The position numbers and the translations under genes were made by a program. From Bacteroidaceae bacterium (GTDB lineage Bacteria > Bacteroidota > Bacteroidia > Bacteroidales > Bacteroidaceae), in contig JAGCGS010000058.1 in assembly GCA_017649485.1 (NCBI GenBank), forward strand, positions 1-55,148: 55,148 nt of DNA. Reading direction: 5' to 3'. Positions 11,916-52,445 of this stretch are shown here, piece after piece (the stretch's first letter is position 1; each line of letters begins with the position of its first letter). The notes beneath the pieces were generated by a model. It saw nothing but the letters and a program-made list of their open reading frames with translations, had not been told where the DNA came from and did not search any database.

Positions 11916-13334
11916 GTGGCAAGGAAAAAGAAAGAGCTCCCATTGTTGGAGCAGGTAACGATAACCGATGTGGCTGCCGAAGGCAAGGCAATCGCCAGGG
12001 TCAACGACCTGGTGGTGTTTGTGCCATACGTGGTGCCTGGTGATGTGGTGGACCTGCAGGTACGCCGCAAGAAGCATCACTATGCCGAGGCAGAGGCTGT
12101 GAAGTTCCACAAGTACTCCGATGTAAGGGCAGTGCCTTTCTGCCAGCACTATGGCATCTGCGGAGGATGTGTATGGCAGATCCTGCCCTATGAGGAGCAG
12201 CTGAAGTACAAACAGAAGCAGGTGGTGGATAACCTCACCCGCATAGGCAAGGTGGCTCTGCCCCCCATCAGTCCTATCATCGGCTCTGCCAAGACGAAGG
12301 AATACCGCAACAAGCTGGAGTTCACCTTCAGCAACAAGCGATGGCTCACACGCGAGGAGGTATCGCAAGCTGTGGAGTATGAACGTAATGTGGTGGGGTT
12401 CCACATTCCGGGAGCTTTCGACAAGGTACTGCCCATCGAGCGATGCTGGCTACAGGCAGACATATCGAACCAGATACGCAACACCATCCGCGACTATGCT
12501 TTGCAACACGGCTTTACCTTTAGCGACCTGCGTTCGCATGAGGGCATGCTGCGTAATCTCATTGTTCGCACCTCTTCCACAGGCGAGCTGATGCTGATTG
12601 TGGTGGCTCGCATCGACAACAGTGTTGAGATGGAGCAATTCAACCAGCTGCTCCAGTTCGTAGCCGACCAGTTCCCACAGATTACTTCACTGCAATATGT
12701 GATAAATAATAAGGTGAACGATTCCATAGGCGACCTCGAAACCTTTACCTTCAAGGGACGTGACCATATCTTCGAGGAGATGGAGGGTCTGAAGTTCAAG
12801 ATTGGTCCCAAAAGCTTTTACCAGACCAACTCCGAGCAGGCTTATATATTATATAAGGTGGCGCGTAGCTTTGCCAACCTGACGGGCAACGAACTGGTGT
12901 ACGACCTTTACACAGGTACAGGCACCATCGCCAACTTCGTGTCCCGCCAGGCTCGACAGGTTATCGGCATCGAATATGTGCCGGAGGCTATTGAAGATGC
13001 AAAGGTCAATGCTGCCATCAACGGCATTGACAATACACTGTTCTTTGCCGGCGACATGAAGGATATCCTCACCGCCGATTTCATAGCTGAGCATGGCAGG
13101 CCAGATGTTATCATCACCGACCCGCCTCGTGCCGGCATGCACCCCGATGTGGTGAATGTTATCTTGAATGCCGAGCCGCAACGCATCGTGTATGTGAGTT
13201 GCAACCCTGCCACACAGGCTCGCGACCTGCAACTGTTGGATGTTAAATATAAGGTGGAGGCGGTACAACCGGTGGATATGTTTCCGCAAACCCACCATGT
13301 GGAAAATGTGGTACTATTGAAGATTGAGGATTGA
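11916..13334 (+). CDS. rlmD: 23S rRNA (uracil-C5)-methyltransferase, RlmD/TrmA family
   Basis: It methylates C5 of a uracil in 23S rRNA using SAM. The start is GTG 11916. A TRAM domain (residues 8-65) precedes the [4Fe-4S] cysteines Cys76, Cys82, Cys85 and Cys177. The methyltransferase domain has VYDLYTGTGTIANF, DPPRAGMH and YVSCNPATQARDL with the catalytic Cys, plus the general-base Glu in HHVENVV. The final residues LKIED and the stop are encoded by the first units of a period-7 array, so the native C-terminus may have been altered. Whether the target is U1939 or another site is not shown by sequence. Confidence 0.9.
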   Translation: MARKKKELPLLEQVTITDVAAEGKAIARVNDLVVFVPYVVPGDVVDLQVRRKKHHYAEAEAVKFHKYSDVRAVPFCQHYGICGGCVWQILPYEEQLKYKQKQVVDNLTRIGKVALPPISPIIGSAKTKEYRNKLEFTFSNKRWLTREEVSQAVEYERNVVGFHIPGAFDKVLPIERCWLQADISNQIRNTIRDYALQHGFTFSDLRSHEGMLRNLIVRTSSTGELMLIVVARIDNSVEMEQFNQLLQFVADQFPQITSLQYVINNKVNDSIGDLETFTFKGRDHIFEEMEGLKFKIGPKSFYQTNSEQAYILYKVARSFANLTGNELVYDLYTGTGTIANFVSRQARQVIGIEYVPEAIEDAKVNAAINGIDNTLFFAGDMKDILTADFIAEHGRPDVIITDPPRAGMHPDVVNVILNAEPQRIVYVSCNPATQARDLQLLDVKYKVEAVQPVDMFPQTHHVENVVLLKIED

Positions 13335-13364
13335 AGATTGAAAATTGAAAATTGAAGATTGAAG
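13316..13364 (+). repeat. Period-7 array, seven ATTGANN units
   Basis: Seven uninterrupted 7-bp units ATTGAAG/ATTGAGG/ATTGAAA begin inside the last codons of rlmD, supply its TGA stop and end 7 bp before the next ATG. Confidence 0.9.
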
Positions 13365-13370
13365 ATTATT

Positions 13371-14318
13371 ATGAAAGAAAAGAAAGTAGCTCGGGCTAAG
13401 AACCAATATACTGATTACAACGTGCGTGAACCTATGGGACTCATGGAGTTCCTGGCAGCCCGTATGCCACAGGCAAGTCGCACCAAGCTGAAGTCTTTGC
13501 TCAGCAAACGCATCGTTTATGTGGATCAACGTATCACCACGCAATACAACTATCCGCTGAAGCCTGGCATGAAGGTGCAGATCAAGCGCGAGAAAGCCGG
13601 ACATGAGTTCCGCAACCGCCTGCTGAAGATAGTTTATGAGGATGCTTACCTACTTGTGGTGGAAAAAGAGCCTGGACTGCTGTCTGTCAAGACCGAACGG
13701 GAGAAGGAACGCACAGCCGCCACCATACTCACCGAATACTTGCGTCGCAGCAACAAACGCAGTCAGGTGTACATTGTGCATCGCCTGGATCGCGACACCT
13801 CGGGACTGATGATGTTTGCCAAAGACGAGAAGACACAGCATACGCTTCGCGACAACTGGCAGCAGATTGTGACAGACCGACGCTATGTAGCCATCGTGCA
13901 TGGCGGCATGGAACAGGATTATGGCACCGTCCGTTCGTGGCTCACCGACAAGAAGCTCTATGTGGCATCAAGCCCTGTGGATAACGGCGGACAGATTGCC
14001 ATCACACACTACGACACCATCAAGCGTGCCAATGGCTATTCCATGATGGAACTGCGATTAGAAACAGGTCGTAAGAATCAGATTCGCGTACACATGGCAG
14101 ATTTGGGACATCCCGTGGTGGGCGACGGTCGTTATGGCAAGGAAGACGACGAGAATCCGTTGAAGCGCCTGGGGCTCCATGCTTTCAAGCTCTGCTTTAC
14201 CCACCCCATCACTGGTGAGAAGATGCAGTTCGAGACCCCCTATCCCACCTCGTTCAAACGTCTGATGCAGCGTCCTGCGCCTGGTGCCCAGCCTCCTTCT
14301 GCTGACGACGCTGATTAA
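13371..14318 (+). CDS. RluA-family 23S rRNA pseudouridine synthase
   Basis: It isomerises uridine to pseudouridine in rRNA or tRNA. The 315-residue protein has an S4-like N-terminal RNA-binding region (about 22-72) and the catalytic motif HRLDRDTSG (137-145) with Asp140. RKNQIRVHMADLGHPVVGD is the second conserved segment. I use ATG 13371 rather than the TTG at 13359, which lies in the repeat. It is 36 bp after rlmD, separated by a period-7 array, so two rRNA modifiers are likely co-transcribed. The C-terminus (PAPGAQPPSADDAD) overlaps the convergent channel gene by 65 bp. Confidence 0.9.
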   Translation: MKEKKVARAKNQYTDYNVREPMGLMEFLAARMPQASRTKLKSLLSKRIVYVDQRITTQYNYPLKPGMKVQIKREKAGHEFRNRLLKIVYEDAYLLVVEKEPGLLSVKTEREKERTAATILTEYLRRSNKRSQVYIVHRLDRDTSGLMMFAKDEKTQHTLRDNWQQIVTDRRYVAIVHGGMEQDYGTVRSWLTDKKLYVASSPVDNGGQIAITHYDTIKRANGYSMMELRLETGRKNQIRVHMADLGHPVVGDGRYGKEDDENPLKRLGLHAFKLCFTHPITGEKMQFETPYPTSFKRLMQRPAPGAQPPSADDAD

Positions 14319-15033
14319 GCTCATCCATATAGCCTGCCGTCATGATACCCGACGGCAGGGCAATGATGGCAATGCCCACAATGGCGGAGATGATACTGAT
14401 GACACGTCCTGTCTCGGAAACGGGATAGAAATCGCCATAGCCTACAGTAGTCAGCGTACAAGCCGACCAATAGAATGCCTCGAAGAAATTATTGAACACA
14501 AGCTCACCCGTCTCAGGGTTAACCTCCAACTCTGCATTGAACATAATCAGTGCCGTGACAAACACATAGAACACCGCCAATGAGAGCACGGTGCAGAGTA
14601 TCTTGCTCTGACGGCGGATCACCGCCAAGATAATCTCCAACGGCTCGAAATACCTGACTACCTTCAGCACTCGCATAATCTTCAGCAGTCGGGTAACCCT
14701 CGCCACCTTGAATGTAGAACCAAGCACATTGAATGTTGGCAAGATAGACAGCAGGTCAACGATAGCCATCGGCGTGAAGGGATAAATAAGGAATGCCGCC
14801 AATGGCTTTCGCTTCGTACGCAGATCAGCCGTCATCCATCGCAGCAGATAGTCTATCACGAAGCAGATGCACGATACCCAGTCCATCAGGAAATAAGTGG
14901 TGTTCGTTTCACGGAACATCAGAGGGAAGATGCCGATGCCTATCATCACCAGCATCAGCCAGTCGTATATGCGGGAGTAAAGGTTGTTGCTCTTCGTCCC
15001 TATCATATCGTTTATCTTTTCTCGTATGCTCAT
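14254..15033 (-). CDS. Voltage-gated potassium channel (Kv/ion transporter family)
   Basis: The 259-residue protein starts at ATG 15033. Six membrane segments are seen: S1-S3 between 22 and 100, the S4 sensor (108-129) with a basic residue every third position (K109, R112, R115, K118, R121, K124, R127), then S5, the pore loop with selectivity filter TTVGYGD (195-201), and S6. That is a complete single-subunit Kv channel, expected as a tetramer in the inner membrane. There is no large cytoplasmic ligand domain. Its 3' end overlaps the pseudouridine synthase gene by 65 bp tail to tail. Confidence 0.93.
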   Translation of the reverse strand: MSIREKINDMIGTKSNNLYSRIYDWLMLVMIGIGIFPLMFRETNTTYFLMDWVSCICFVIDYLLRWMTADLRTKRKPLAAFLIYPFTPMAIVDLLSILPTFNVLGSTFKVARVTRLLKIMRVLKVVRYFEPLEIILAVIRRQSKILCTVLSLAVFYVFVTALIMFNAELEVNPETGELVFNNFFEAFYWSACTLTTVGYGDFYPVSETGRVISIISAIVGIAIIALPSGIMTAGYMDELNQRRQQKEAGHQAQDAASDV

Positions 15034-15056
15034 TGTCAATTAGCTTAATTTGTCTG

Positions 15057-15064
15057 CAAAGATA
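15057..15064 (-). promoter_or_regulatory. -7 box for the K+ channel gene
   Basis: TATCTTTG on the minus strand, 23 bp before ATG 15033. Confidence 0.65.
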
Positions 15065-15087
15065 GTAAGAATAAATGAAAATGTTAT

Positions 15088-15095
15088 TACCTTTG
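15088..15095 (+). promoter_or_regulatory. -7 box for the methyltransferase gene
   Basis: TACCTTTG fits TAnnTTTG, 26 bp before ATG 15122, and rules against an upstream start at 15050. Confidence 0.6.
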
Positions 15096-15121
15096 TCAAG
15101 CGAAATAAACCACCCTTAGTT

Positions 15122-15835
15122 ATGGAACATAGCAAAGACCCGATGGGTAGAGCCATCAACGAGTATTGGCAAACGGGCGACAAGACACCCGTACGAGTAT
15201 TCTCACCCATGTTCGATGAGGACGAGATGCCTGTAGAAACCTTGTTCCGTTGTTTCGACGACATGCCTGCCTTAGAGCAGGAGGCATTGAGGCAAGCACG
15301 AGGCAAGACGCTCGATGTGGGAGCGGGAGCCGGTTGCCACTCTTTAGTGCTGCAGGACTGGGGCATCGATGTTACTGCCATCGATATCTCTCCCCTATCG
15401 GTCGAGACCATGCGTCATCGTGGGGTACAGAAGGTCTTGCAACAAGACTTCTTCACCCTGTCAAACCAGTATGACACCATATTATTATTAATGAACGGTA
15501 TCGGCATCGTAGGCAAGGCGGAGAACCTGCCCGTGCTCTTCCACCTCTTGGACCGCATCCTTGCCCCTGGTGGCCAACTCCTTTTCGACTCATCAGACCT
15601 CTGCTACCTCTTTGAAGACGAGGACGGCATCATCGAGTTACCCGATACCGACGAGTATTATGGCAACCTCGTTTATCAGTTGCAATACAAAGATACTCAA
15701 GGCGAACCTTTCAACTGGAGCTACATCGATGCCGACACTGTCAGCGAAGTAGCCACCACGCACGGCTATCAATTAGATATTATTAGTGAAGGACCTCATT
15801 TTGACTACTTAGGACGGATAAAAAGACTGCTTTAA
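15122..15835 (+). CDS. Class I SAM-dependent methyltransferase
   Basis: The 237-residue protein has motif I LDVGAGAGCHS (64-74), the acidic end of strand 2 at TAIDIS (Asp88), and a motif IV-like segment LLLMNGIGIVGK. Length and single-domain build fit a small-molecule methyltransferase; the substrate is unknown. ATG 15122 follows a -7 box by 26 bp. It stands alone: divergent from the K+ channel and followed by 263 bp of AT-rich DNA before the pilus operon. Confidence 0.85.
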   Translation: MEHSKDPMGRAINEYWQTGDKTPVRVFSPMFDEDEMPVETLFRCFDDMPALEQEALRQARGKTLDVGAGAGCHSLVLQDWGIDVTAIDISPLSVETMRHRGVQKVLQQDFFTLSNQYDTILLLMNGIGIVGKAENLPVLFHLLDRILAPGGQLLFDSSDLCYLFEDEDGIIELPDTDEYYGNLVYQLQYKDTQGEPFNWSYIDADTVSEVATTHGYQLDIISEGPHFDYLGRIKRLL

Positions 15836-16098
15836 CAATAAGGTACTATAGCTTAAATTGTTTCATCTGCAATTATCTTATCTTTTAAACGTTTTGTTAA
15901 TGAGCATCTTACCAATCCTTGCAAAGAAAAATTAAAAATTATATATAAAAAAATCATCTAATTATTTGCACGTTTCATAATTTATGTATTTATTTGCATC
16001 CTGTATATCATAGTTAATTTAGGTTTAATAGGTAGGTATTTGTATAACTGTCTGTCTTTCAGGCTGAAGTATTAGAATTATTAGATAAGTAGGAATAA

Positions 16099-18014: not shown

Positions 18015-18075
18015 ACAAAGCAATTTTGAGATAATATAAATAAAGGAATTAATAACAATTTAATAACAAGTAATT

Positions 18076-31123: not shown

Positions 31124-31254
31124 CCGTTCGGACAAACGAACGGGGCTGATTATTTATACCCTACCCGTTCGGACGGATTTAGATAAATCGCTCACTCCCG
31201 TTCGGACGGATTTGCAATCCGTCCGCATTAATTTTAAGGATTTGCAATCCGACA
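31124..31254. repeat. Partial copy of the TTCGGACGGATTTG repeat
   Basis: It holds several CGTTCGGACGGATTTG / CAATCCGTCCG inverted units and a segment (GGATTTAGATAAATCGCTC) that is the complement of the right end of the copies at 31682 and 32837. An open frame across it is repeat-derived. Confidence 0.8.
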
Positions 31255-31405
31255 ATAGTAAGCATTCGATGAATTACACATTTTTACGTTTCATATTTTA
31301 TGAAATACAATCATTGTGTTGCTACCATGGCTTGGCAGGCTATTTATCCGATGATTTATATACCGCAAATCAAAGAAATGCCTGCCATCACTTGACGGAG
31401 GCTTT

Positions 31406-31487
31406 GCTATGGGTCGTCGCAGTATCTGCTATGACTGAACGGAATATCTCCTATCCCCCCATAGGAGATATTGCGACGAGTGATAGC
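31406..31487. repeat. Long imperfect inverted repeat with a perfect 12-bp core
   Basis: Core arms AATATCTCCTAT (31443-31454) and complement (31461-31472) flank six C. A longer outer match pairs GCTATGGGTCGTCGCA... (31406-31434) with the complement of 31459-31487. No transposase nearby. Confidence 0.75.
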
Positions 31488-31681
31488 AAGCATTCGGATG
31501 ATTAACACGTAACGTTTCCACCACCAACAGCCATAGCTACAACACCTGGTTGCCATATCTCCTTGCCCAATGATCCGTCACTGCAAGCAATCCTTACTCC
31601 CATTTCCCTATAAGCATACCGATCTGAGTAATTGAAGTATTGCTACGGGGGTGACATCCCCCGTTCTGGCGGATTTGTAAT

Positions 31682-31883
31682 CCGAACGAACAGAGAGAGC
31701 AGCCTCGTTCGGACGGATTTGTAATCCGTCCGCATTGATTATAAGGATTTGAAATCCGATAATATTATTTTCCGCATTACAAATGCTAATATTCATTACG
31801 TTCGGATTACAAATCCGAACGAACAGGCAAGCTTGCTTGGACTATGCCGAGCGGGAGCGATTTATCTAAATCCGAACGAACAG
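31682..31883 (+). repeat. ~200-bp repeat, left direct copy flanking higBA
   Basis: It is about 90% identical by eye to 32837-33029, in the same orientation, with a 9-bp extra piece near 31826. It contains CGTTCGGACGGATTTG, ATTATAAGGATTTG, TGCCGAGCGGGAGCG and ATCTAAATCC. 31488-31681 and 31884-32036 hold no gene that I can support. Confidence 0.85.
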
Positions 31884-32036
31884 GCATTAGTATGTTGATG
31901 CCTTGCAATATACTAATGTAAGGGCAGCGAGATTACTACATGTAAGTTGTACCTGTATATAATAGTAACAACAGCTACAATGGATGCTGCGTTTTAGTTT
32001 TTCTGAAATAGTTTTTGTATTTCTTAAAAAAGTAGC

Positions 32037-32044
32037 TATATTTG
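32037..32044 (+). promoter_or_regulatory. -7 box for higBA
   Basis: TATATTTG, 17 bp before the toxin start, so the leader is about 10 nt. Confidence 0.6.
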
Positions 32045-32060
32045 CACGATAATTGATTGC

Positions 32061-32360
32061 ATGATGAGAATAATTTCAAAGAGTACATTGGTTGATTACT
32101 ACACTAAGGTGCCTCAATCGAAATCGGCACTTGAGGAATGGTATGAAAAGACGAAGAAGTCTGAGTGGACTTGCTTCGCTGACATCAAACAGACTTTTAA
32201 TAGTGTTGATGCTGTTGGTAATCAACACTATGTGTTTAACATAAAGCGCAATGACTATAGGCTGGTAGTTGTAATTCAATTTACACCGAAAACAGTTTAT
32301 ATTAGGTTTGTGGGAACCCATAAAGAATATGACGAGATTAAGGACATTCAAAACATCTAA
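32061..32360 (+). CDS. higB: HigB-type toxin (mRNA interferase)
   Basis: The 99-residue protein fits the HigB toxin family: SALEEWYEKTKKSEWTCFADI, then NQHYVFNIKRNDYRLVV and TVYIRFVGTHKEYDEI. The family cuts mRNA at the ribosome. The second Met (32064) is equally possible as start. The antitoxin gene starts 3 bp after the stop, the toxin-first order of HigBA. The pair sits between two direct ~200-bp repeats and away from any other gene. Confidence 0.9.
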   Translation: MMRIISKSTLVDYYTKVPQSKSALEEWYEKTKKSEWTCFADIKQTFNSVDAVGNQHYVFNIKRNDYRLVVVIQFTPKTVYIRFVGTHKEYDEIKDIQNI

Positions 32361-32363
32361 GAT

Positions 32364-32729
32364 ATGGCACAGATTAAAAGCGAAGCTGCTTATAGAGCAG
32401 CATTGAAGAGAATTGACGAACTGCTTCCATTGGTGAATGACGACACGCCAACGGATGACAAGAACTATCTGGAACTTGACATGATTTCAGATATGGTGGA
32501 GGAATATGAAGATATCCATTATCCCATCGGTAAACCATCATTGGTTGATATTATCAAACTTCGACTTTACGAAATGGGGATTAACCAATCAAAATTGGCA
32601 GAGATGCTTGGACTCAGCAATGCCCGTGTCAGTGAAATAATGAATGGTAAGAGTGAACCTTCTTTGAAGATTGGAAGGGAGATTAGTAAGCAATTGAATA
32701 TTGACCCGGCTATCGTATTAGGTGTATAA
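32364..32729 (+). CDS. higA: HigA-type antitoxin with XRE helix-turn-helix
   Basis: The 121-residue protein has an acidic helical N-terminus (about 1-50) and a C-terminal XRE domain (about 62-120), with NQSKLAEMLGLSNARVSEIMNG as helices 2 and 3. It should bind HigB and repress the operon promoter. It is complete and starts 3 bp after higB. Confidence 0.9.
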   Translation: MAQIKSEAAYRAALKRIDELLPLVNDDTPTDDKNYLELDMISDMVEEYEDIHYPIGKPSLVDIIKLRLYEMGINQSKLAEMLGLSNARVSEIMNGKSEPSLKIGREISKQLNIDPAIVLGV

Positions 32730-32836
32730 TGTTAGTTCGTTTCAACGTAAGCATTCTACAAAGTACAGATAGATAGTAACACCTATATCATGTGTGTTTC
32801 ACCGGATACTTACATTACGTTTGGATTTATCTAAAT

Positions 32837-33029
32837 CCAAACGAACAGGGAGAGCAGCTTCGTTCGGACGGATTTGCAATCCGTCCGCATTGATTATAAG
32901 GATTTGTAATCCGATAATATGTCTTTCCGCATTACAAATGCTCATATTCATTACGTTCGGATTGCAAATCCGAACGAACGGGTTGGACTATGCCGAGCGG
33001 GAGCGATTTATCTAAATCCAAACGAACGG
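32837..33029 (+). repeat. ~200-bp repeat, right direct copy flanking higBA
   Basis: Same orientation and order as 31682-31883. Between higA and this copy there are ~107 bp with no gene. Confidence 0.85.
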
Positions 33030-33049
33030 TGGAGAACGGCGGGAAGAAC

Positions 33050-33294
33050 GCCCCGAAGGGGCATCAAGCACATAGCCCAGGGCAACGCCCTGGGTAAGTA
33101 GTTCATAAAAAGTACGCCCTGCAGGGGCAAAAGCAATAGACGATTAATAATATAATTCTTTTGCCCTGACAGGGCGAATTGGATTGTGATAACATTATAC
33201 CCAGGGCGTTGCCCTGGGCTGTTTGCTTCTGCCCCTTCGGGGCGTATCCATTCGGACAAACGAACGAGTCTGATTGCTTCTGCCCCTTCGGGGC
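33050..33294. repeat. Cluster of REP-like palindromes
   Basis: GCCCCTTCGGGGC or its complement occurs at 33050-33062, 33231-33243 and 33282-33294. CCCAGGGCnnnGCCCTGGG occurs at 33076-33094 and 33200-33218. TTCGGACAAACGAACG-type units lie between. It lies just downstream of the S9 peptidase gene and may act as its 3' hairpin region. Confidence 0.85.
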
Positions 33295-33321
33295 GTGACC
33301 ATTCGGACAAACAAACTAAGT

Positions 33322-35826: not shown

Positions 35827-36738
35827 ATGAAAAATTACGACTTGATAGCAATATTGGGCCCTACAGCAACGGGAAAGACCGCTTTGGCTGCTCATTTGGC
35901 TGACAGGTTGGGCACTGAGGTTATCTCTGCCGACTCTCGCCAGGTGTATCGACGCATGGACTTAGGTACTGGCAAAGACTTGGTGGACTATGAGGTGGAC
36001 GGGCGGCATATCCCCTATCACCTGATAGACATTGCCGAGCCTGGTACCAAGTATAATGTCTTTCAGTATCAGCAGGATTTTCTGAAGGTGTATGAGGATA
36101 TCACGAGTCGGGGCATGTTGCCGATAGTATGCGGAGGGTCAGGATTGTATATCGAGTCAGTGTTGCGAGGCTACAGGATGGCAGATGTGCCGGAGAACAA
36201 AGAACTGCGTCAGAGGTTGGAGGGGAAGTCGTTAGAAGAGCTGACTGAGATACTCAAATCTTATAAGACCCTGCACAACAACACCGACACAGATACTGCC
36301 AAACGTGCCATACGAGCCATAGAGATAGCGGAGTTCGGACAAAGGGAAGAGACCTCCTTCCCCGAGTTTCATTCGTTGGTGATTGGTGTGAGCATAGACC
36401 GAGAGCTGCGTAGGGAGAAGATTACGAGGCGTTTGAAGCAGCGATTGGAAGAGGGTATGGTGGATGAGGTAAGGAATCTGTTGGCAGAGGGTATCCCAGC
36501 TGAGAATTTGATATATTACGGTTTGGAGTATAAGTATCTCACGATGTATGCCACAGGGCAACTGAGTTATGATGAGATGTTCAGTCAGCTGGAGATTGCC
36601 ATTCATCAGTTTGCGAAGAGACAAATGACGTGGTTCAGAGGGATGGAACGCAGAGGGGTGAATATCCATTGGATTGAGGCAACCCTGCCGATGGAAACAA
36701 AAGTAGAACAAATCATTTCATTAATGAATCATGAATAA
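35827..36738 (+). CDS. miaA: tRNA dimethylallyltransferase
   Basis: MiaA adds the dimethylallyl group to A37 of tRNAs that read U-starting codons. The 303-residue protein has the P-loop GPTATGKT (10-17), ISADSRQVYRRMDLGTGK and GGSGLYIES, and RQMTWFRG near the end. Length is normal. Its stop (36736-36738) overlaps an ATG at 36731 that opens the kdsA frame. First gene of the miaA-kdsA-M16 unit. The promoter leaves almost no 5' leader. Confidence 0.95.
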   Translation: MKNYDLIAILGPTATGKTALAAHLADRLGTEVISADSRQVYRRMDLGTGKDLVDYEVDGRHIPYHLIDIAEPGTKYNVFQYQQDFLKVYEDITSRGMLPIVCGGSGLYIESVLRGYRMADVPENKELRQRLEGKSLEELTEILKSYKTLHNNTDTDTAKRAIRAIEIAEFGQREETSFPEFHSLVIGVSIDRELRREKITRRLKQRLEEGMVDEVRNLLAEGIPAENLIYYGLEYKYLTMYATGQLSYDEMFSQLEIAIHQFAKRQMTWFRGMERRGVNIHWIEATLPMETKVEQIISLMNHE

Positions 36739-36747
36739 TAATCTAAA

Positions 36748-36775
36748 TTCAATGGTCAATGATCAACCGTCACAT
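36748..36775 (+). repeat. Period-7 array, about four GTCAATG-type units
   Basis: TTCAATG, GTCAATG, ATCAACC, GTCACAT lead directly into the 87-bp repeat. Confidence 0.8.
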
Positions 36776-36856
36776 TTTGGAGCAGCGAGAGCAGAAACGA
36801 TGCTTGCATCGGTTATGCCGAGTCGCGACAAAATAGGAGCGAAGCTCAATGGTCAA
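36770..36856 (+). repeat. 87-bp dispersed repeat, copy A
   Basis: It is the exact reverse complement of copy B (40533-40619). It contains the palindrome CGATGCTTGCATCG and is bracketed by period-7 arrays. It is open in the kdsA frame (FGAARAETMLASVMPSRDK). Confidence 0.9.
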
Positions 36857-36921
36857 CCGTCAATCGTCAATCGTCAATGGTCAACGGTTAATGGTCAATC
36901 GTCAATGGTCAATGGTCAATG
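36846..36921 (+). repeat. Period-7 array, about eleven GTCAATN units
   Basis: Units GTCAATC, GTCAATG, GTCAACG and GTTAATG run without phase loss into the kdsA coding region and contain its likely start codon. Confidence 0.9.
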
Positions 36922-37699
36922 GTCCAACTTCTTCCTGCTGGCTGGCCCTTGTGTGATTGAGGGCGAAGAGATGGCCATGCGGATAGCGGAAAAGATAGTG
37001 GGTATCACAGAGAAGCTGCAGATACCCTATGCTTTCAAGGGTAGCTACCGCAAAGCCAACAGAAGTAGGCTGGACTCATTTACAGGTATCGGCGATGAGA
37101 AGGCTTTAAAGATTTTACGCAAAGTTAAGGAAACATTCAATATTCCTGTGGTGACGGATATCCATACGGAGCAAGAGGCAGCGATGGCTGCAGAGTATGT
37201 GGACATCTTGCAGATTCCCGCCTTTCTTTGCAGGCAGACCACCCTATTGGTAGCAGCTGCGCAGACGGGTAAGACGGTGAACATCAAGAAAGGTCAGTTT
37301 CTCTCACCCCAGGCTATGCAGTTTGCTGCACAAAAGGTAGTGGAGGCAGGTAATCCTAACGTGATGCTGACAGAGCGAGGTACCACTTTCGGCTACCAAG
37401 ATTTGGTGGTGGATTTCAGAGGCATCCCACAGATGCAGGCATTCGGTTTCCCTGTGGTGCTCGACTGCACCCATTCCTTACAGCAACCCAACCAGACGAG
37501 TGGTGTGACAGGTGGTATGCCACAGCTGATCAGTACCATTGCCAAAGCAGGTATCGCCGCAGGAGCTGACGGCCTCTTCATCGAGACACACGAAGACCCC
37601 TCAGTGGCAAAGAGTGATGGCGCCAATATGCTGAAGCTCGACCTGCTGGAAGATTTGCTGACAAGGCTGGTGAGAATTAGAAAAGCAATAACCGATTAA
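36905..37699 (+). CDS. kdsA: 3-deoxy-8-phosphooctulonate (KDO-8-P) synthase
   Basis: KdsA condenses arabinose-5-phosphate and PEP, the entry step to KDO for lipopolysaccharide. The core is intact: NFFLLAGPCVIEGEE, AFKGSYRKANRSR, VTDIHTEQEA, ILQIPAFLCRQT, GTTFGYQDLVVD, DCTHS and FIETHEDP. I chose ATG 36905, giving 264 residues, close to family length; it lies inside the period-7 array, which encodes MVNGQWS. The frame is open to an ATG at 36731 overlapping miaA's stop, which would add 58 repeat-encoded residues. Which start is used is not settled. Three bp separate the stop from the next ATG. Confidence 0.9.
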   Translation: MVNGQWSNFFLLAGPCVIEGEEMAMRIAEKIVGITEKLQIPYAFKGSYRKANRSRLDSFTGIGDEKALKILRKVKETFNIPVVTDIHTEQEAAMAAEYVDILQIPAFLCRQTTLLVAAAQTGKTVNIKKGQFLSPQAMQFAAQKVVEAGNPNVMLTERGTTFGYQDLVVDFRGIPQMQAFGFPVVLDCTHSLQQPNQTSGVTGGMPQLISTIAKAGIAAGADGLFIETHEDPSVAKSDGANMLKLDLLEDLLTRLVRIRKAITD

Positions 37700-37702: not shown

Positions 37703-40543
37703 ATGAGAAAATTTCTGTTTAGATTCACATTGATATTGATCATGTTCATGGTCAATGGTCAATGGTCAATGGTCAATGGCCAGATGCAATTGCCACCAAT
37801 ACCTATTGACCCGCAAGTTCGCATCGGTCATTTGGATAATGGATTGACTTATTACATCCGTCATAACGAGAAACCAGAGAAGCGCGCGGAATTCTACATC
37901 GCACAGAAGGTGGGCTCCATACAGGAGGAGCCTCGTCAGAGAGGCTTGGCTCACTTCTTAGAACACATGGCGTTCAACGGTACAAAGAATTTCCCTGGCA
38001 ACGAGCAGGGTAAGGGCATCATAGATTGGTGTGAGGCTCATGCCATCAAGTTCGGCTACGACCTGAACGCCTATACCAGTGTGGACGAAACCGTATATAA
38101 CATCAGTAACATTCCTACCGATAATGCGGCAGTGCTGGACTCTTGTCTGCTGATCCTGCATGACTGGAGCAACTATGTGCTGCTGGAGGACGAGGAGATT
38201 GACAAGGAGCGTGGAGTAATCCGTGAGGAATGGCGCAGCCGTAACAGCGGACTCCTGCGCGTTTATACCGATGCGCAAGCGACTATGTATCCTGGGTCTA
38301 AGTATGCCGACTGTATGCCTATCGGCAACATCGACGTGGTGAACAATTTCCCTTATCAGGATTTGCGTGACTACTACAACCTGTGGTATCATCCTGATTT
38401 GCAGGGAGTCATTATTGTGGGCGACATCGATGTGGATGAGATGGAAGGCAAGGTGAAGAAACTCTTCAGCGAGATTCCCAAGGCAACAGGTAAGCCCGAG
38501 CGTGTTTATTATCCTGTTGCCGACAACGATGCACCTATTATATATATAGGCAACGACAAAGAGGTAAGTACCCCCAATGTGCAGATTTACTTCAAGCACG
38601 ATGCTATCACGGCTGAAGAGAAGCAAAGCATGATGTACATGATGCAGTATTATATGCTGGGCATGATAAGCAACATGCTGAACGAGCGCTTCGATGAGAT
38701 GACACAGCAGGCTAACCCTCCTTTCAATGGTGCCAGTGCAGAATATGGCGACTACTTCCTGAGCAAGACAAAGCAGGCTTTCAATGTGACGGTAATGACG
38801 AAGGCCGACGGCATTGAAACGGGCTTGCAGGCAGCGCTGACAGAGATTGAGCGCATGAAACGCTTCGGCTTCACGGCTTCGGAGTATGATCGTGCCCGTG
38901 CCAACTACCTGCAAATGCTGGAGTCGGCTTACAAGGAGCGCAACAATACCCAGAACGCCAGCTTCGTGAACGAATATGTGCAGCATTTCCTCAACAATGA
39001 ACCTATACCAGGTATTGAGAATGAATATAACATCTTCAACCAGATTGCTCCCAATATCCCTGTAGAAGCTATCAATGCCCTTGTGCAACAGCAACTGATT
39101 CCTGACAACAACCGTGTGGTATTCATAGCCGTACCTGATAACGCTGTGGATATATGCCCCAGCAAGGAACAGGTATTGGAGATGCTGAATGGCATGAGTC
39201 AGCTGCAAGTGGAGGCATACGTAGATAATGTGTCTGACGAGCCTTTGGTAAGCGATATACCTCTGGGTGGCAAGATTGTTAAGGAAGAGACAGGTGCCTT
39301 CGGCACAACGAAGCTGACCCTGAACAACGGCGTGCAGGTATATATCAAGCGAACCGACTTCAAGGAGGATGAGATCAGGATGAGGGCAGTGAGTCCTGGC
39401 GGTACCACCCAGTTTGAGGACAAGGATAAATTAGAGATGGAGGTACTGAACGACTTGGGCACCATCGGTGGTCTGGGTAACTTCAGTCAGACCGACCTTA
39501 CCAAGCAATTGGCTGGTAAGAAGGTTTCTGTAAGCGCCTCTGTCACTTCTCAGCGTGAAACCTTGGGTGGCAACAGTTCGCCTAAGGATTTCGAGACCAT
39601 GCTGCAGCTGGTTTACCTGAGATTCCAGGCTCCCCGCATGGATAATGATGCTTTCGATTCTTATAAGACTCGCATGAAAGCACAGTTGGAGAATGCAAAG
39701 GCTAATCCGCTCTCTACCCTGAACGATACACTGAGTGTGATGTTATACGGACACCATCCACGCCTTGTACTGATGCAGCCTGAGATGGTTGACCAAATTA
39801 ATTATCAACGTGGCTTAGAGATGTTTGCAGACCGCTATGCAGATGCCAGCGACTTTACATTCTTCTTCGTGGGTAATATTGACATCGAAGCTACGAAACC
39901 TCTGATTGCCCAGTATCTGGGTGCGCTTCCTAACAAGCAACGGCAAGAGGCTGCCATTGACAGAAAGATGGATGTATTACCTGGCGTGCGTGTAAATGAA
40001 TATGCAAAGGAGTTGCAGACACCGATGGCAACTACGGTGATGATTTATACAGGTAAAACGGCATACAACTTGAAGCATAATGTGGTGATGGACTATCTGA
40101 CACAGGCTCTTGATATCGTGTTTACTGAGGAGGTACGCGAGAAAGAGGGCGGTACTTACGGTGTTAGCTCTTACGGATCGCTGAATAAATATCCGCATGA
40201 GGAGGCAATGTTGCAGATTGTATATCAGACAGATCCAACGAAGAAGGATAAGCTGAATGCGCTGATTGATGAACTGGTGCAGAAGATGGCGGCTGAAGGT
40301 CCTACACCAGAGCAGATGCAGAAGATTCGCGACTATATGCTGAAGAATTATAATGACAACCAGAAGGAAAATTCGTACTGGATTAGCTCGCTGGATGAGT
40401 TCTATTATACGGGTACTGACTTCAATGCTGGTTATATTGACATGGTGAATGGTGTGACGGCAGATGATGTGAAGGCTTTTGCTTCAGATCTTATTAAGCA
40501 GGGGAATAAAGTGACCGTGGTGTTGAGTACCATTGACCATTGA
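37703..40543 (+). CDS. M16 family metallopeptidase (pitrilysin-like), exported
   Basis: The 946-residue zinc peptidase has the inverted motif HFLEH (His84, Glu87, His88) with the third zinc ligand expected in the IDKERGVIREE segment. A second, inactive M16 domain follows (about 520-940, EKEGGTYGVSSYG). The leader is MRKFLFRFTLILIMF, then MVNGQWSMVNGQ, encoded by five period-7 units, so the signal-peptide cleavage region is repeat-derived. The stop codon lies in another period-7 unit within 87-bp copy B. Likely a periplasmic or surface oligopeptide-degrading enzyme. Confidence 0.9.
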   Translation: MRKFLFRFTLILIMFMVNGQWSMVNGQMQLPPIPIDPQVRIGHLDNGLTYYIRHNEKPEKRAEFYIAQKVGSIQEEPRQRGLAHFLEHMAFNGTKNFPGNEQGKGIIDWCEAHAIKFGYDLNAYTSVDETVYNISNIPTDNAAVLDSCLLILHDWSNYVLLEDEEIDKERGVIREEWRSRNSGLLRVYTDAQATMYPGSKYADCMPIGNIDVVNNFPYQDLRDYYNLWYHPDLQGVIIVGDIDVDEMEGKVKKLFSEIPKATGKPERVYYPVADNDAPIIYIGNDKEVSTPNVQIYFKHDAITAEEKQSMMYMMQYYMLGMISNMLNERFDEMTQQANPPFNGASAEYGDYFLSKTKQAFNVTVMTKADGIETGLQAALTEIERMKRFGFTASEYDRARANYLQMLESAYKERNNTQNASFVNEYVQHFLNNEPIPGIENEYNIFNQIAPNIPVEAINALVQQQLIPDNNRVVFIAVPDNAVDICPSKEQVLEMLNGMSQLQVEAYVDNVSDEPLVSDIPLGGKIVKEETGAFGTTKLTLNNGVQVYIKRTDFKEDEIRMRAVSPGGTTQFEDKDKLEMEVLNDLGTIGGLGNFSQTDLTKQLAGKKVSVSASVTSQRETLGGNSSPKDFETMLQLVYLRFQAPRMDNDAFDSYKTRMKAQLENAKANPLSTLNDTLSVMLYGHHPRLVLMQPEMVDQINYQRGLEMFADRYADASDFTFFFVGNIDIEATKPLIAQYLGALPNKQRQEAAIDRKMDVLPGVRVNEYAKELQTPMATTVMIYTGKTAYNLKHNVVMDYLTQALDIVFTEEVREKEGGTYGVSSYGSLNKYPHEEAMLQIVYQTDPTKKDKLNALIDELVQKMAAEGPTPEQMQKIRDYMLKNYNDNQKENSYWISSLDEFYYTGTDFNAGYIDMVNGVTADDVKAFASDLIKQGNKVTVVLSTIDH
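37748..37782 (+). repeat. Period-7 array of five ATGGTCA units inside the M16 leader
   Basis: Five units, the last ATGGCCA, encode a 7-residue periodic peptide at residues 16-27 of the peptidase. Confidence 0.9.
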
Positions 40544-40619
40544 GCTTCGCTCCTATTTTGTCGCGACTCGGCATAACCGATGCAAGCATCGTTTCTGCTC
40601 TCGCTGCTCCAAAATGTGA
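40533..40619 (-). repeat. 87-bp dispersed repeat, copy B (inverted)
   Basis: Exact inverse of copy A. Its first bases form the stop codon of the M16 gene (40541-40543). Confidence 0.9.
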
Positions 40620-40652
40620 ACATTGAACATTGAACATTGACCATTGAAACTT
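40618..40652 (+). repeat. Period-7 array, five GAACATT-type units
   Basis: GAACATT three times, then GACCATT and GAAACTT, ending 9 bp before the DUF5687 start codon. Confidence 0.85.
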
Positions 40653-42159: not shown

Positions 42160-42236
42160 TTGACTGCGTCCTATTTCGTCGCGACTCGGCATAGCTGATG
42201 CAAGCATCGCTCTGCCCTCGCTGCTCCGAAAAGTGA
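42160..42236 (-). repeat. Dispersed repeat, diverged copy C
   Basis: Same orientation as copy B, roughly 80-85% identical by eye, sharing GTCGCGACTCGGCAT and GATGCAAGCATCG. Period-7 units flank it on both sides (42151-42164 and 42238-42300). Confidence 0.85.
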
Positions 42237-42237: not shown

Positions 42238-42300
42238 GATTGACCATTGACCATTGACGATTGAACTTGTAACTTGAAACTTGTAACTTGAAACTTGAAA
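42238..42300 (+). repeat. Period-7 array, nine units, changing from NATTGAC to CTTGNAA
   Basis: GATTGAC, CATTGAC twice, GATTGAA, then CTTGTAA/CTTGAAA alternating. The 7-bp phase is kept while the unit sequence changes. It ends 4 bp before the ABC ATPase start. Confidence 0.9.
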
Positions 42301-42304
42301 CATT

Positions 42305-43147
42305 ATGATAACAATAAATAATCTATTGAAGCAATTTGGTGAGAAGAGGGCTGTGGATATCGACAGCTATGTCATCAACCAGGGTGATATGCTGGGACTG
42401 GTGGGTAACAACGGTGCCGGCAAGACTACCCTTTTCCGTCTGACACTCGATCTCTTGCAAGCCGACAATGGGAATGTAACGATTGACGGCATCGACGTGA
42501 GCAAAAGTGAGGACTGGAAGAAAATCACGGGTGAGTTTATCGACGACGGTTTCCTGATAGACTACCTTACACCTGAAGAGTATTTCTATTTCATCGGTAA
42601 GATGTACGGACTGAACAAGCAGGAGGTGGATGAGCGAGTGAAACCTTTCGAGCATTTCATGAATGGCGAGGTGATTGGGCAACAGAAGTACATCCGCAAC
42701 TACTCTGCTGGCAACAAACAGAAGATTGGCATCATCAGTGCCATGCTGCATCATCCTCAGTTGCTGATCCTGGATGAACCTTTCAACTTTCTGGACCCTA
42801 CTTCACAATCCATCATCAAGCAGTTACTGAAGAAGTACCATGAGGAGCATAACGCTACGGTTATCATTTCGTCGCATAACCTGAACCACACAGTGGATAT
42901 CTGCTCGCGCATCGCCCTGATGGAGCATGGTAAGATTATCCGTGATTTAGTGAACGAGAATAACTCTGCCGAGCAGGAACTGGAGGATTACTTCAATGCT
43001 GGTGTTGAGGAACCCACTGCAGAGGAACCCATCGAAGAGCAGCCTATTGAGGAGACTCTTGAAGAACCTGTTGAAAAGCCTGTTGTCGAAGAGGTTGAGC
43101 AACAGGCAGAAAATTCCGAAGAACCCGAATCCGACAATGTTAGATAA
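42305..43147 (+). CDS. ABC transporter ATP-binding protein
   Basis: The 280-residue ATPase has Walker A GNNGAGKT (34-41), signature YSAGNKQK (133-140), Walker B LLILDEPF (153-160) and the switch His in ISSHN (about 189). The signature departs from LSGGQ, as is common in this type of exporter. It should energise the DUF5687 protein upstream. Residues about 233-280 form an acidic tail of repeated EEP/EEQ units with Pro, absent from most ABC ATPases; its DNA is repetitive too. Confidence 0.9.
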   Translation: MITINNLLKQFGEKRAVDIDSYVINQGDMLGLVGNNGAGKTTLFRLTLDLLQADNGNVTIDGIDVSKSEDWKKITGEFIDDGFLIDYLTPEEYFYFIGKMYGLNKQEVDERVKPFEHFMNGEVIGQQKYIRNYSAGNKQKIGIISAMLHHPQLLILDEPFNFLDPTSQSIIKQLLKKYHEEHNATVIISSHNLNHTVDICSRIALMEHGKIIRDLVNENNSAEQELEDYFNAGVEEPTAEEPIEEQPIEETLEEPVEKPVVEEVEQQAENSEEPESDNVR

Positions 43148-47688: not shown

Positions 47689-47699
47689 AATCTAAATGA

Positions 47700-47728: not shown

Positions 47729-47758
47729 TGGCAAATTACCGTTAAAAGATAAAACGAT

Positions 47759-49948: not shown

Positions 49949-49950
49949 GA

Positions 49951-49980
49951 ATTTCCCTCGTCGGTTTCGACGAGGGAAAT
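49951..49980. terminator. Bidirectional terminator between glnN and the Crp/Fnr gene
   Basis: Perfect 13-bp stem ATTTCCCTCGTCG / complement with a GTTT loop, then a T-rich CTATTTTCT on the plus strand. Confidence 0.85.
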
Positions 49981-49987
49981 CTATTTT

Positions 49988-50689
49988 CTATCCTATCTTC
50001 GATATCTTCTTCAAACGTTCCTCATCAATCAGTTTGATTTTGCGTCCATCGATGGCAATCAATTTCTCTGAAGCAAACTGAGAGAGAGTGCGGATGGCAT
50101 TTGAAGTTGTCATATTTGACAGATTTGCCAAATCCTCTCGCGACAGATAAATACTCAAGGTAGAGTTATCCTCCTCCAATCCATAGCTTTCCCTCAGGAA
50201 AAGCAAAGACTCTGCCAAGCGCCCACGGATATGCTTTTGAGTGAGATTCACCGTTCGCCTATCCGCCACGCCCAACGATTTGGACAAGTGACAAACGAAG
50301 AAATAAGCCAAATTGATGTTCTCCTTCACCAATTTATCGATGATATACAAAGGGATGAGACACACGACAGAAGGCTCAACCGCTGCTGCTGCATTGACAT
50401 ATTGCTCTTGGGCAAAGAAGGCACGAAAACCGAAATAGCCAACAGGTTTGATCATTCGCACTATCTGGCTTCTGCCTCCCACTCCTTCGCGGAAAACCTT
50501 CACCTTGCCTTTGAGCAGACAGTAAAGGTATTCGGGTGACTCATCTTCATTGTGCACAATCTCATTTTTCTTATAGGTCTGCAGCTTGAAACTGTCGGCC
50601 AGAAGCTCACGCTGAGAAGCGGTGAGCAGATCCCATAGCTCAGAAATCATTTCTGATATGTTGATATCTGACAAGTTTATCTTAGCCAT
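49988..50689 (-). CDS. Crp/Fnr family transcription regulator
   Basis: The 233-residue protein has a cyclic-nucleotide-type beta-roll (about 25-135: YLYCLLKGKVKVFREG) and a C-terminal winged HTH (about 160-225) with LSREDLANLSNMTTSNAIRTL as recognition region. No Fnr-type Cys cluster is present, so it does not sense oxygen by Fe-S. Its start overlaps the 3' end of trxB by 8 bp, so it is translated with trxB. Effector unknown. Confidence 0.88.
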   Translation of the reverse strand: MAKINLSDINISEMISELWDLLTASQRELLADSFKLQTYKKNEIVHNEDESPEYLYCLLKGKVKVFREGVGGRSQIVRMIKPVGYFGFRAFFAQEQYVNAAAAVEPSVVCLIPLYIIDKLVKENINLAYFFVCHLSKSLGVADRRTVNLTQKHIRGRLAESLLFLRESYGLEEDNSTLSIYLSREDLANLSNMTTSNAIRTLSQFASEKLIAIDGRKIKLIDEERLKKISKIG

Positions 50690-51632
50690 TTGACGTATTG
50701 TTTAATAAGAACCTTTCTGCTTCAATAGCCGCCTTGCAGCCACTTCCTGCTGCTGTGATGGCTTGACGGTAATGAGGGTCTGCCACATCACCAGCGGCAA
50801 ATACACCAGGCACATTGGTACGAGGACTGTTACCTTCTGTCACGATATAGCCAGCCTCATCTGTCTGCACATAATCCTTGAAGATGTCAGAGCTGGGCTT
50901 ATGACCGATAGCGAGGAAGAATCCATCGATAGGCAGGTCGTAATGACGCTCATCGGCTTCTCCCCTACGATGTACCAGATGCACACCCTCAACGCCATTA
51001 TCGCCATAGAGACCTTCAGCATTGTGCTCAAATAACACCTCAATCTTCGGGTGGTTCATCACCCTTTCTTGCATGATTTTAGAGGCACGGAGGAATGGCT
51101 TGCGAACTATCAGATAGACTTTTGCGGCCAAGCCTGCCAGGTAGGTAGCTTCCTCGCAAGCGGTATCGCCTCCACCAACCACAGCTACAGTCTTTTTGCG
51201 ATAGAAGAATCCGTCGCAAGTGGCACAGGCACTTACACCCATACCCGCATACTTCTTCTCATCTTCCAAACCCAAGTATTTGGCAGCAGCACCCGTAGCG
51301 ATAATCAATGTTTCAGCCTCAATTACCTTTGAGCCATCGATGGTGATTTTAAAAGGACGCTCACTTAAATCGGCCTGTGTAGCCACACCTTGACGCAAAT
51401 CGGCACCGAATCGTTCTGCTTGCTGGCGCAGGTCTTCCATCAGTTGGTTGCCGTCAACTCCCTGTGGATAGCCTGGGAAGTTCTCAACTTCCGTTGTGGT
51501 GGTGAGTTGGCCACCAGGTTGCAAGCCTGCATACAGCACAGGGTTAAGGTTGGCACGTGAGGCATAGATGGCAGCCGTGTAACCCGCAGGTCCTGAGCCA
51601 ATAATCAGCAATCTAACTTTTTCTGTTTGCAT
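50682..51632 (-). CDS. trxB: Thioredoxin reductase
   Basis: TrxB reduces thioredoxin with NADPH. The 316-residue flavoprotein has the FAD site GSGPAG (12-17), the redox site CATC (Cys136, Cys139), the NADPH fold GGGDTACEEA (about 154-163) and FAAGDVAD near the end. Length is typical. A period-7 array separates it from the LolA-like gene upstream, and the regulator downstream overlaps it by 8 bp. Confidence 0.95.
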   Translation of the reverse strand: MQTEKVRLLIIGSGPAGYTAAIYASRANLNPVLYAGLQPGGQLTTTTEVENFPGYPQGVDGNQLMEDLRQQAERFGADLRQGVATQADLSERPFKITIDGSKVIEAETLIIATGAAAKYLGLEDEKKYAGMGVSACATCDGFFYRKKTVAVVGGGDTACEEATYLAGLAAKVYLIVRKPFLRASKIMQERVMNHPKIEVLFEHNAEGLYGDNGVEGVHLVHRRGEADERHYDLPIDGFFLAIGHKPSSDIFKDYVQTDEAGYIVTEGNSPRTNVPGVFAAGDVADPHYRQAITAAGSGCKAAIEAERFLLNNTSNG

Positions 51633-51643
51633 AACATTTTATT

Positions 51644-51720
51644 TATTGACCATTGACCATTGACGATTGACTATTGACAATTGACGATTGACAATTGACA
51701 ATTGACGATTGACAATTGAC
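51644..51720 (+). repeat. Period-7 array, eleven perfect NATTGAC units
   Basis: Eleven contiguous 7-mers; positions 2-7 are constant (ATTGAC) and position 1 takes all four bases (T,C,C,G,T,A,G,A,A,G,A). It fills the trxB-lolA spacer. Confidence 0.95.
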
Positions 51721-51756
51721 AATTAAAGTTCAATCTCAAAGATCTTGGTTTATACT

Positions 51757-52383
51757 CTATCTTAGGTCTATTATTTCTACCCCTGGGTATTCTTTCTTAT
51801 CAAACACAAAAGCCGATTCAGGCAGGGGCTGCTTCATCACATCAAAGTGAACAACATCAATCACCGTCACATCTCGTCCTCCTCTGCTTGCCATACTGAT
51901 GCGTATGGGGTAAAGCTCTGTTTCATGAATCATCAGCACGATGCTCTGCATCTCTTCACGGGGGATGGTGGTTGTCATGATCACCTTGCGCACGCCAGGC
52001 ACAGCTGTCTCTCCAAACTTGAGCTCATAGCCTTGCTCATAGAGCGACATCCAAGCGTATGGATTCAAGGTTTGCAGCTCCTCAGCCGATGGTTCCGACA
52101 CACTCACCTCCTCGTTCGCCTCCACGTATGTCCATTGTGTCTTTCCATCAAACCAAGTCTTCATGCCAGCGGCCTCCAGCACGAATTTATCCCCTTGCAC
52201 CAAGATACTGCCTTCAGTATCTCCGTCACCCATATATACGGTGAAGTCGATATCAACATAACCCTCAGCGAAAGCGCGTTGAGCAACCTCCTTCAACAGC
52301 TCCTCTGGAGTTTGGCAATTGACAATTGATAATTGACAATTGACAATTAGCAATAGCCCTATAAATAATAACCTTTTCAACAT
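51757..52383 (-). CDS. LolA-like outer-membrane lipoprotein carrier
   Basis: LolA ferries lipoproteins from the inner to the outer membrane. The 208-residue protein has the LolA-fold pattern: FTVYMGDGDTEGSILVQGDKF, WFDGKTQWTYVEANEEVSVSEP and LNPYAWMSLYEQGYELKF. The leader begins MLKRLLFIGLLL, then IVNCQLSIVNCQ, encoded by a period-7 array. The two Cys lack a lipobox (Asn at -1), so signal peptidase I cleavage near TPEE is more likely. It lies between ftsK and trxB. Confidence 0.82.
   Translation of the reverse strand: MLKRLLFIGLLLIVNCQLSIVNCQTPEELLKEVAQRAFAEGYVDIDFTVYMGDGDTEGSILVQGDKFVLEAAGMKTWFDGKTQWTYVEANEEVSVSEPSAEELQTLNPYAWMSLYEQGYELKFGETAVPGVRKVIMTTTIPREEMQSIVLMIHETELYPIRISMASRGGRDVTVIDVVHFDVMKQPLPESAFVFDKKEYPGVEIIDLR
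52317..52351 (+). repeat. Period-7 array inside the LolA-like leader
   Basis: Five units AATTGAC/AATTGAT/AATTAGC; read on the minus strand they encode residues about 11-22 of the carrier. Confidence 0.9.
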
Positions 52384-52404
52384 TCTAAATCTTTAATTCA
52401 ATCA

Positions 52405-52445
52405 TCAATTGTCAATCGTCAATGGTCAATAGTCAATAGTCAACC
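52405..52445 (+). repeat. Period-7 array in the ftsK-lolA spacer
   Basis: Units GTCAATC, GTCAATG, GTCAATA twice, GTCAACC. On the minus strand the last one supplies the ftsK TGA stop (52440-52442). Confidence 0.9.

Follow-up and report, generated by a model that had tools for sequence, protein, structure and literature searches.

The 55,148-nt contig considered here (JAGCGS010000058.1 of the Bacteroidaceae assembly GCA_017649485.1), the whole of which we call the window, belongs as contig 66 to a genome assembly of 2.6 Mb that is 82.6% complete and is designated G000 below. It carries tandem arrays of a 7-bp unit, the heptads, whose core reads ATTGA on one strand and TCAAT on the other, together with three copies of a hairpin-forming element that lies among them. 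A sequence-only reading had listed nine such arrays, and every one was re-found, the one at 36749 by direct reading of the letters, having been missed by Tandem Repeats Finder (TRF). What had gone unremarked is that the arrays at 36749/36846, 40617 and 42239 flank members of one hairpin family (74-76 nt here). Arrays and hairpins lie between and within open reading frames (ORFs) as follows; G013 is the sister species.

13316..13367, + strand: heptad array of 7 ATTGAAR-type units; the ORFs on either side are one of the tRNA-methyltransferase family (11916-13334) and one for a pseudouridine synthase (from 13359)
36749..36771, - strand: short heptad run of 3 TCAANNN units, at the left foot of hairpin copy 1
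36772..36847, + strand: hairpin copy 1, 76 nt, read in frame within the extended N-terminus of ORF 36731-37699
36846..36924, - strand: heptad array of 11 TCAATNN-type units, directly 5' of conserved KdsA/DAHP-synthase-family sequence
37748..37782, - strand: heptad array within an M16 peptidase ORF (37703-40543), in what the sequence suggests is the signal-peptide region
40542..40617, - strand: hairpin copy 2, the same 76 nt as copy 1; no hairpin at the orthologous place in G013
40617..40648, + strand: heptad array of 4-5 ATTGAAC-type units, at the foot of hairpin copy 2
42161..42234, - strand: hairpin copy 3, 74 nt
42239..42301, + strand: heptad array, ATTGACN then AACTTGN in phase, directly 5' of an ABC-transporter ORF at 42305
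51645..51724, + strand: heptad array of 11 ATTGACN units, whose last base takes all four letters; G013 has a hairpin here
52312..52348, + strand: heptad array, ATTGACA-type, within the N-terminal part of a LolA-like ORF as called (51757-52383, minus strand); common to G013
52398..52443, - strand: heptad array of 6 TCAATNN units, between the LolA-like and FtsK ORFs

Several finer points of the earlier reading held on recounting. The eleven units at 51645 end in C,C,G,T,A,G,A,A,G,A,A with the other six bases fixed, the phase of 7 is kept across the unit change at 42239 (ATTGACN to AACTTGN), and the frame arithmetic is correct, the ATTGA strand giving TGA in each frame every 21 nt. At the orthologous positions of G013, the 13316 array is represented by heptads plus a hairpin, the 37748 array is present with different units, the heptads at 42161 run on with no hairpin, and the 52398 array, in near-identical flanking sequence, has about 8 units against 6 in G000, with cores that agree and free bases that differ. 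The insert at 36772-36924 is absent from the relatives G007, G011, G017 and G023, and G013 has hairpins and heptads there. Elsewhere in the window, a tmRNA gene (Rfam RF00023) lies at 1574-1969 on the minus strand.

Heptads across the genome and their variable base

The claim that the arrays form one family in both orientations proved true of the whole genome: the pattern ATTGANN x4 gave 139+167 overlapping matches in the 2.6 Mb, and the same pattern read backwards gave 0+0. A period scan blind to dialect, run over 426,648 bases (the window together with 20 stretches of contigs 8, 10, 40 and 56, picked partly for having matches), found 34 arrays at period 7 and 30 at its harmonic, 14, against 0-6 at each of the periods 4-6, 8-13 and 15; a first-order Markov copy of the sampled DNA gave 0 arrays at all periods. 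Such head-to-tail repetition of 7-bp units beyond chance characterizes the heptamer tandem-repeat families (STRR, LSSR and TAACTGA types, compared below), and extrapolation suggests roughly 150-210 arrays in the whole genome. AAACTTT-like period-7 arrays were also seen at L084:11478-11515 and L070:8715-8742, and at the same sites in G013.

With genes taken as non-overlapping ORFs of at least 100 aa, clusters of arrays are intergenic in 23 of 36 cases in G000 (13.5% of random placements) and in 41 of 55 in G013 (12% of random placements), a dispersed and mostly extragenic distribution that is again typical of heptamer families. A start or stop codon lies within 15 nt of 22 of the 36 G000 clusters and 38 of the 55 G013 clusters, against 11.5% and 10.3% for random placement, respectively. 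The earlier placing of the arrays at gene boundaries thus stands as a strong bias and fails as a rule, in that some lie within coding frames (37748; 36772-36924). Neither of two outcomes that would have told against the earlier reading came about, since counts over the genome exceed those of the randomised copy and a lean to gene ends is present. Clusters were also seen in both orientations, between converging genes and within ORFs. Of 38 stop codons inside clusters (G000 and G013 pooled), 29 belong to the ATTGA strand, in part because that strand must stop, by the arithmetic of 7 against 3.

On one strand the G000 unit reads AAT-N-K-T-C. In 171 comparisons of adjacent units (29 arrays, 200 units; 5 of the 34 period-7 arrays could not be set in the AAT register and were left out of this count, and seven were left out of the later dialect comparison), the differences at positions 1-7 numbered 2, 5, 23, 65, 24, 4 and 22, position 4 taking 65 of 145, the largest share and under half. 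The free base reported for one array is therefore real in that one position varies most, and is not confined to that array, but its share is a plurality only and other dialects vary elsewhere. In G013 the G000 unit is dominant, position 4 accounting for 44 of 64 differences within the main group, while a second dialect, AATGAAN, is most variable at position 7 (13 of 28). Units of G006 are of AATGGAG type and vary mainly at positions 5 and 7; further dialects are AATYTTC in RGIG6036 and RUG13201, AATTGAN in G007 and AATTYTC in G008 (samples of 8, 9, 5, 5 and 2 arrays for G006, RGIG6036, RUG13201, G007 and G008, many of the loci having been fetched for the hairpin). In RUI513 a concentration of variation at a preferred position is not clear. 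The per-dialect counts show that most dialects vary chiefly at one or two positions, and that the position differs by dialect. Of all features of the system, this preferred variable base has the poorest explanation; it could come from recombination between arrays with constraint on the remaining bases or, alternatively, from a base-specific copying step.

The hairpin and its coupling to the arrays

The hairpin is 70-76 nt long and is represented in G000 by 25 BLAST matches, one of them partial. Its stems covary: in an alignment of 43 diverse copies, hand-picked mainly for similar length from 78 non-redundant hairpins, 85.1% of cells are paired, and in 119 cells both sides of the pair have changed; shuffles averaged 38, with none of 500 reaching 119, and slid controls gave 18-34. 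The structure used was the fold of one copy with pairs added by hand, and kinship among copies can inflate the comparison with shuffles. Compensatory changes in a conserved hairpin, as in these 43 copies, are expected of repetitive extragenic palindromic (REP) elements; a constant GTAG or CGTC end, also expected of them, is absent from the same alignment by inspection. The 3' foot forms a mini-hairpin whose loop is in many cases a GNA triloop (52 of 94 distinct tails); a stem of 4 bp or more is present in 34% of tails but in 5% of their shuffles. Among DNA mini-hairpins GCGAAGC is of exceptional stability. Rfam, searched at gathering scores with the window and 11 loci, gave no match, so the hairpin was set aside as a known RNA family. 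Two hybrid palindromes join the hairpin's inner stem to another outer stem (L069:968-1043, reverse-strand coordinates, and L069:17011-17095), the first of them sitting between heptads. Hairpin copies also occur near tRNA genes and a mutS-like gene, as judged by sequence, in L181, L185 and L266, the tRNAs being confirmed in L181 only.

In G000 the hairpin lies where one unit meets the next; it keeps their phase and has a single orientation, read ...NNTC[AC...YC]AATNN... on one strand. A heptad unit AA[TC]NNTC, with at most 1 mismatch, adjoins it directly on both sides in 24 of the 25 matches (boundaries set by hand), as against 3.1% of window 7-mers, and longer period-7 runs lie on at least one side of 13 of the 25, with none at the other periods from 4 to 12. 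Tandem hairpins in G000 are separated by one heptad as spacer (L040/L048, L046/L051); elsewhere they are at times without it (L161). The units to left and right are identical in 7 of 24 cases (5.3 when permuted), and agree at bases 4-5 in 11 of 24 (9.1), so that a target-site duplication is unsupported, and one of 7 bp was rejected because identical units are not significantly in excess. Perfect 7-mer repeats across the 103 hairpins scored as array-free number 17 against 0.8 expected, many of them visibly short arrays and some of 8-nt units. At some hairpins (L163, L176, L205, L206, L216, L224, L226) the feet seem to carry 8-nt repeats (AACTCCTG, AACAAGTC), and the foot repeat need not therefore be a heptad. 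Foot motifs with no recognised full hairpin number 19 in G000; few are at arrays and most resemble chance matches, which disposed of the idea that most solo arrays carry hairpin remnants.

Rickettsia palindromic elements (RPE) reside in frame inside protein genes. In-frame insertion of this kind is found here also: the gene for a GNAT acetyltransferase (a Pfam Acetyltransf_3 match in a 65-aa piece) is interrupted in L160 and L230 by about 75 nt of hairpin in frame, and is uninterrupted in its homologues in L350, L357 and L358. Hairpins lie in a frame open throughout in 17 of 106 cases (240 nt each side) against 50% of random stretches, and are thus depleted in genes, not excluded from them. 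A different, short palindrome (CAAGGGGGCTTGCCCCCTTG type) recurs in frame in an Eco57I-type methylase ORF (L065:1-3078, minus strand), giving NGACPIV/RGQAPLL-like peptides (by eye); this ORF has a Y1_Tnp match at residues 464-578.

Sister species and wider distribution

The sister species G013 is syntenic with G000: a KdsA-family protein is 97% identical, and DNA blocks 150 nt or longer show 67-96% identity, the majority close to 80%. With one genome per species compared, 23 of 60 G000 clusters could be placed by both flanks in the G013 stretches fetched (23 of 55 G013 clusters in the reverse direction), the placed clusters including loci fetched for carrying a heptad or a hairpin. Ten of the 23 have an array only in both species. 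Where G000 has array and hairpin, G013 has the array only at 3, neither at 3, the hairpin at 1 and both at 1; where G000 has an array only, G013 has neither at 2, array plus hairpin at 1 and the hairpin at 1; and at 1 site a hairpin alone in G000 faces neither in G013. Arrays are thus often common to the sister species while unit numbers and hairpins differ. Three single sites add to this picture: at L273:14006 in G013 about four units lie between a stop and an ATG, with the array absent from G000 and no trace of a hairpin; at L084:19377 a decayed-looking array in G000 corresponds to a fresh one in G013; and at L072:6169 a solo array lies 3' of a truncated hairpin 3' foot.

Among 61 genomes a BLAST query with the hairpin was positive in 7, in G023 weakly. 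Counts of ATTGANN x4, which covers the ATTGA dialect only, are 306 in G000, 185 in G006, 33 in G008, 199 in G013, 85 in G023, 4 in G027 and 8 in G029, these being the hairpin carriers, and 0-7 in the other 54 genomes except G007 (25), G025 (12), G048 (12) and G052 (9), so that hairpin presence and ATTGA-dialect counts are broadly parallel. The backward control pattern matched in G031 (25) and G035 (15), which means that other heptads exist. Dialect-blind sampling found four arrays in G006 and a single array in each of G012 and G021; G003, G014, G017 and G022, sampled at 80 kb per genome, had none. More widely, the hairpin's core pattern occurs in at least 117 contigs among GTDB genome contigs. 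The matches listed are mostly from Prevotella, Bacteroidaceae and Bacteroidales metagenome-assembled genomes (MAGs), many with ruminant-gut sample names; further listed carriers are Prevotella sp. khp7 and Prevotella sp. P6B1, Hoylesella loescheii An865 and a Paludibacteraceae MAG, and one listed Fibrobacter MAG may be contamination. A viral element was considered and rejected, with 10 stretches in viral contigs against those 117 or more in genome contigs.

Interpretation and known systems

We favour, with a probability of about 0.6, the view that heptad arrays are self-expanding, are tolerated at gene junctions, and are entered in phase by a REP- or RPE-like hairpin that is mobilised in trans. 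The arrays would expand and contract by whole units and would persist mainly in places where they are least damaging, namely gene ends, operon junctions and signal-peptide tails; since unit numbers differ between the species, we infer that whole-unit slippage is the motor of unit number. The hairpin would be a separate element of 70-76 nt, moved by a putative activity supplied in trans, and most likely entering a pre-existing array between two units, immediately 5' of an A, rather than serving as the source from which arrays grow. The lack of significant target duplication, together with the fixed strand and phase, fits either site-specific single-strand insertion or in-register recombination between arrays, without separating them; movement would probably pass through a single-strand (hairpin) intermediate. 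Presumably neither arrays nor hairpin serve a function for the host.

Several observations weigh against this view. Simple slippage gives no reason for one position to vary most. Single copies of the hairpin fold only modestly better than shuffles (z -2.3 to -0.1 in seven folds), so that the evidence for structure is covariation and not stability. A period-7 array lies in the flank of just 22 of 126 hairpins from named genomes (126 of 133 had enough flank; period 8 occurs in 3, period 10 in 1, and the rest of 4-12 in none). Some placements in G013 have long unaligned flank ends (e.g. L069:18929) and may not be true orthologues, and the comparison, being between two species without an outgroup at these sites, shows differences rather than gains or losses. 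The co-occurrence of hairpin and heptads may reflect shared ancestry. G007, which has no hairpin match, yielded three arrays and one run of N in the dialect-blind sample, and no arrays were found in 80-kb samples of the hairpin-bearing G027 and G029; neither element, then, needs the other, and the two are partly independent. Nor was a mobilising gene found, either by a Y1 search of 199 loci or by clustering the neighbouring ORFs (795 stop-to-stop ORFs from those loci among L153-L269 with a scanned hairpin), none of the 25 largest clusters inspected (2 to 7 loci each) being mobile-looking.

The same sister-species data can be read the other way round, with the heptads as the feet of the hairpin and solo arrays as what remains after its loss by slippage or excision between repeats. 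Sites with array and hairpin in one species and the array alone in the other would follow directly, as would the truncated foot beside the solo array at L072:6169, and the foot dialects do equal the solo-array dialects in both G000 and G013. We nevertheless think this unlikely, given the arrays of G007 in a genome without any hairpin match, the G013 array at L273:14006 that is absent from G000 and shows no hairpin trace, and the 19 lone foot motifs of G000, rarely at arrays and mostly chance-like.

A functional account, in which a protein that binds RNA or DNA recognises the heptads as repeated sites and so takes part in translation or termination at gene junctions, reading most bases and leaving one free, seems to us distinctly improbable. 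It would accommodate the near-constancy of most bases, the single preferred variable base seen across several dialects and the clustering near starts and stops, and a translational role has been proposed for TAACTGA heptamers by MacGregor 2015 (PMC4679880). Dialects, however, switch between sister species and within G013; arrays are found in either orientation, also where genes converge and within ORFs; and the array is missing at several orthologous genes.

Rather more speculative is a unification of heptad and hairpin as one single-strand-DNA system, in which an enzyme acting at the mini-hairpin foot might add 7-nt units singly, with one base untemplated or loosely templated; a dialect and a preferred variable base specific to each lineage would result, and the hairpin would move between the tracts so made. 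We hold out little hope for it.

The least probable reading is that the genome's one REP-associated Y1 transposase (RAYT) moves the hairpin and shapes the heptads as its cleavage sites: cleavage of the IS608 type is at TCAA, a RAYT-like gene on contig 14 is flanked by other palindromes with a heptad array about 0.4 kb away, and a mixed palindrome has the hairpin's inner stem, but this RAYT has no counterpart in the other six genomes with the hairpin (incomplete assemblies), PF01797 does not track the hairpin (of the seven carriers it is in only G000 and G006 and, at a score below cut-off, G023), and searches with 15 of the 21 intended query proteins found no Y1 protein in 199 hairpin and sample loci, where control loci matched 21 of 21. 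A RAYT as mover was accordingly rejected, PF01797 being present in 28 of the 61 genomes without following the hairpin and no Y1 homologue being found at hairpin loci; a cognate Y1 transposase in the same genomes, as in REP/RAYT systems, was not found in these incomplete assemblies. A RAYT-like Y1 transposase gene at L064:1432-1977 (Pfam Y1_Tnp; motifs NHLH and YIHMNP) has palindromes of a second family on both sides and a heptad array 3' of it, and by motif only is possibly near subclass 2.6 of PMC6006769. The second palindrome family (CGTTCGGACGGATTTGNAATCC type) is clustered in the window at 31199-33316 and resembles the palindromes flanking the contig 14 RAYT.

The wider interest of these arrays is that seven-base tandem repeats recur in unrelated bacteria, and that this system lets one ask what makes heptads, why period 7 is favoured, and whether heptads are the target, the product or the passenger of a mobile hairpin. 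The short tandemly repeated repetitive (STRR) heptamers of cyanobacteria are 7-bp tandem repeats. They and the heptanucleotide long simple sequence repeats (LSSR), the latter as cited in PMC4679880, resemble ours in being dispersed 7-bp tandem arrays with several families per genome; the literature consulted on them shows no coupling to a mobile hairpin. The same paper describes TAACTGA heptamers in Beggiatoaceae, cyanobacteria and five Bacteroidetes, strain-specific and differing in 7-nt steps between two Cyanothece strains, with no evident route for spread between lineages, and its introduction recounts the one mechanism encountered in the literature consulted, an earlier suggestion that slippage is promoted by the contact of polymerase with 7 nt. 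Those repeats are likewise numerous intergenic 7-bp direct repeats, often near starts, scattered over phyla and in some cases mixed with other heptamers. The unit here is not TAACTGA but AATNKTC or one of the other dialects, and the preferred variable base, the dialect differences between sister species and the covarying hairpin at unit boundaries set the present arrays apart from those. No report of this hairpin or of Prevotella heptads was found in the portion consulted of the open-licence PubMed Central (PMC) literature, and to that extent the hairpin coupling, the movable variable base and the sister-species dialect switching appear new.

REP elements, according to PMC6006769 and PMC3733652, are short, palindromic, dispersed, non-autonomous and mostly extragenic hairpins, as is the element described here, and in the first of these REP/RAYT families include atypical structures in Bacteroidetes; the present hairpin differs in its 70-76 nt length, internal loops and 3' mini-hairpin, with no GTAG end and no cognate transposase found. 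The RPE, named in PMC3733652 with a CGTC end, share with our element residence in frame inside protein genes. They belong to another lineage and presumably have another sequence, and the present element is mostly outside long open frames and, in some species, in heptad arrays; its copies in coding sequence nonetheless place an RPE-like palindrome in frame in genes of gut Bacteroidales.

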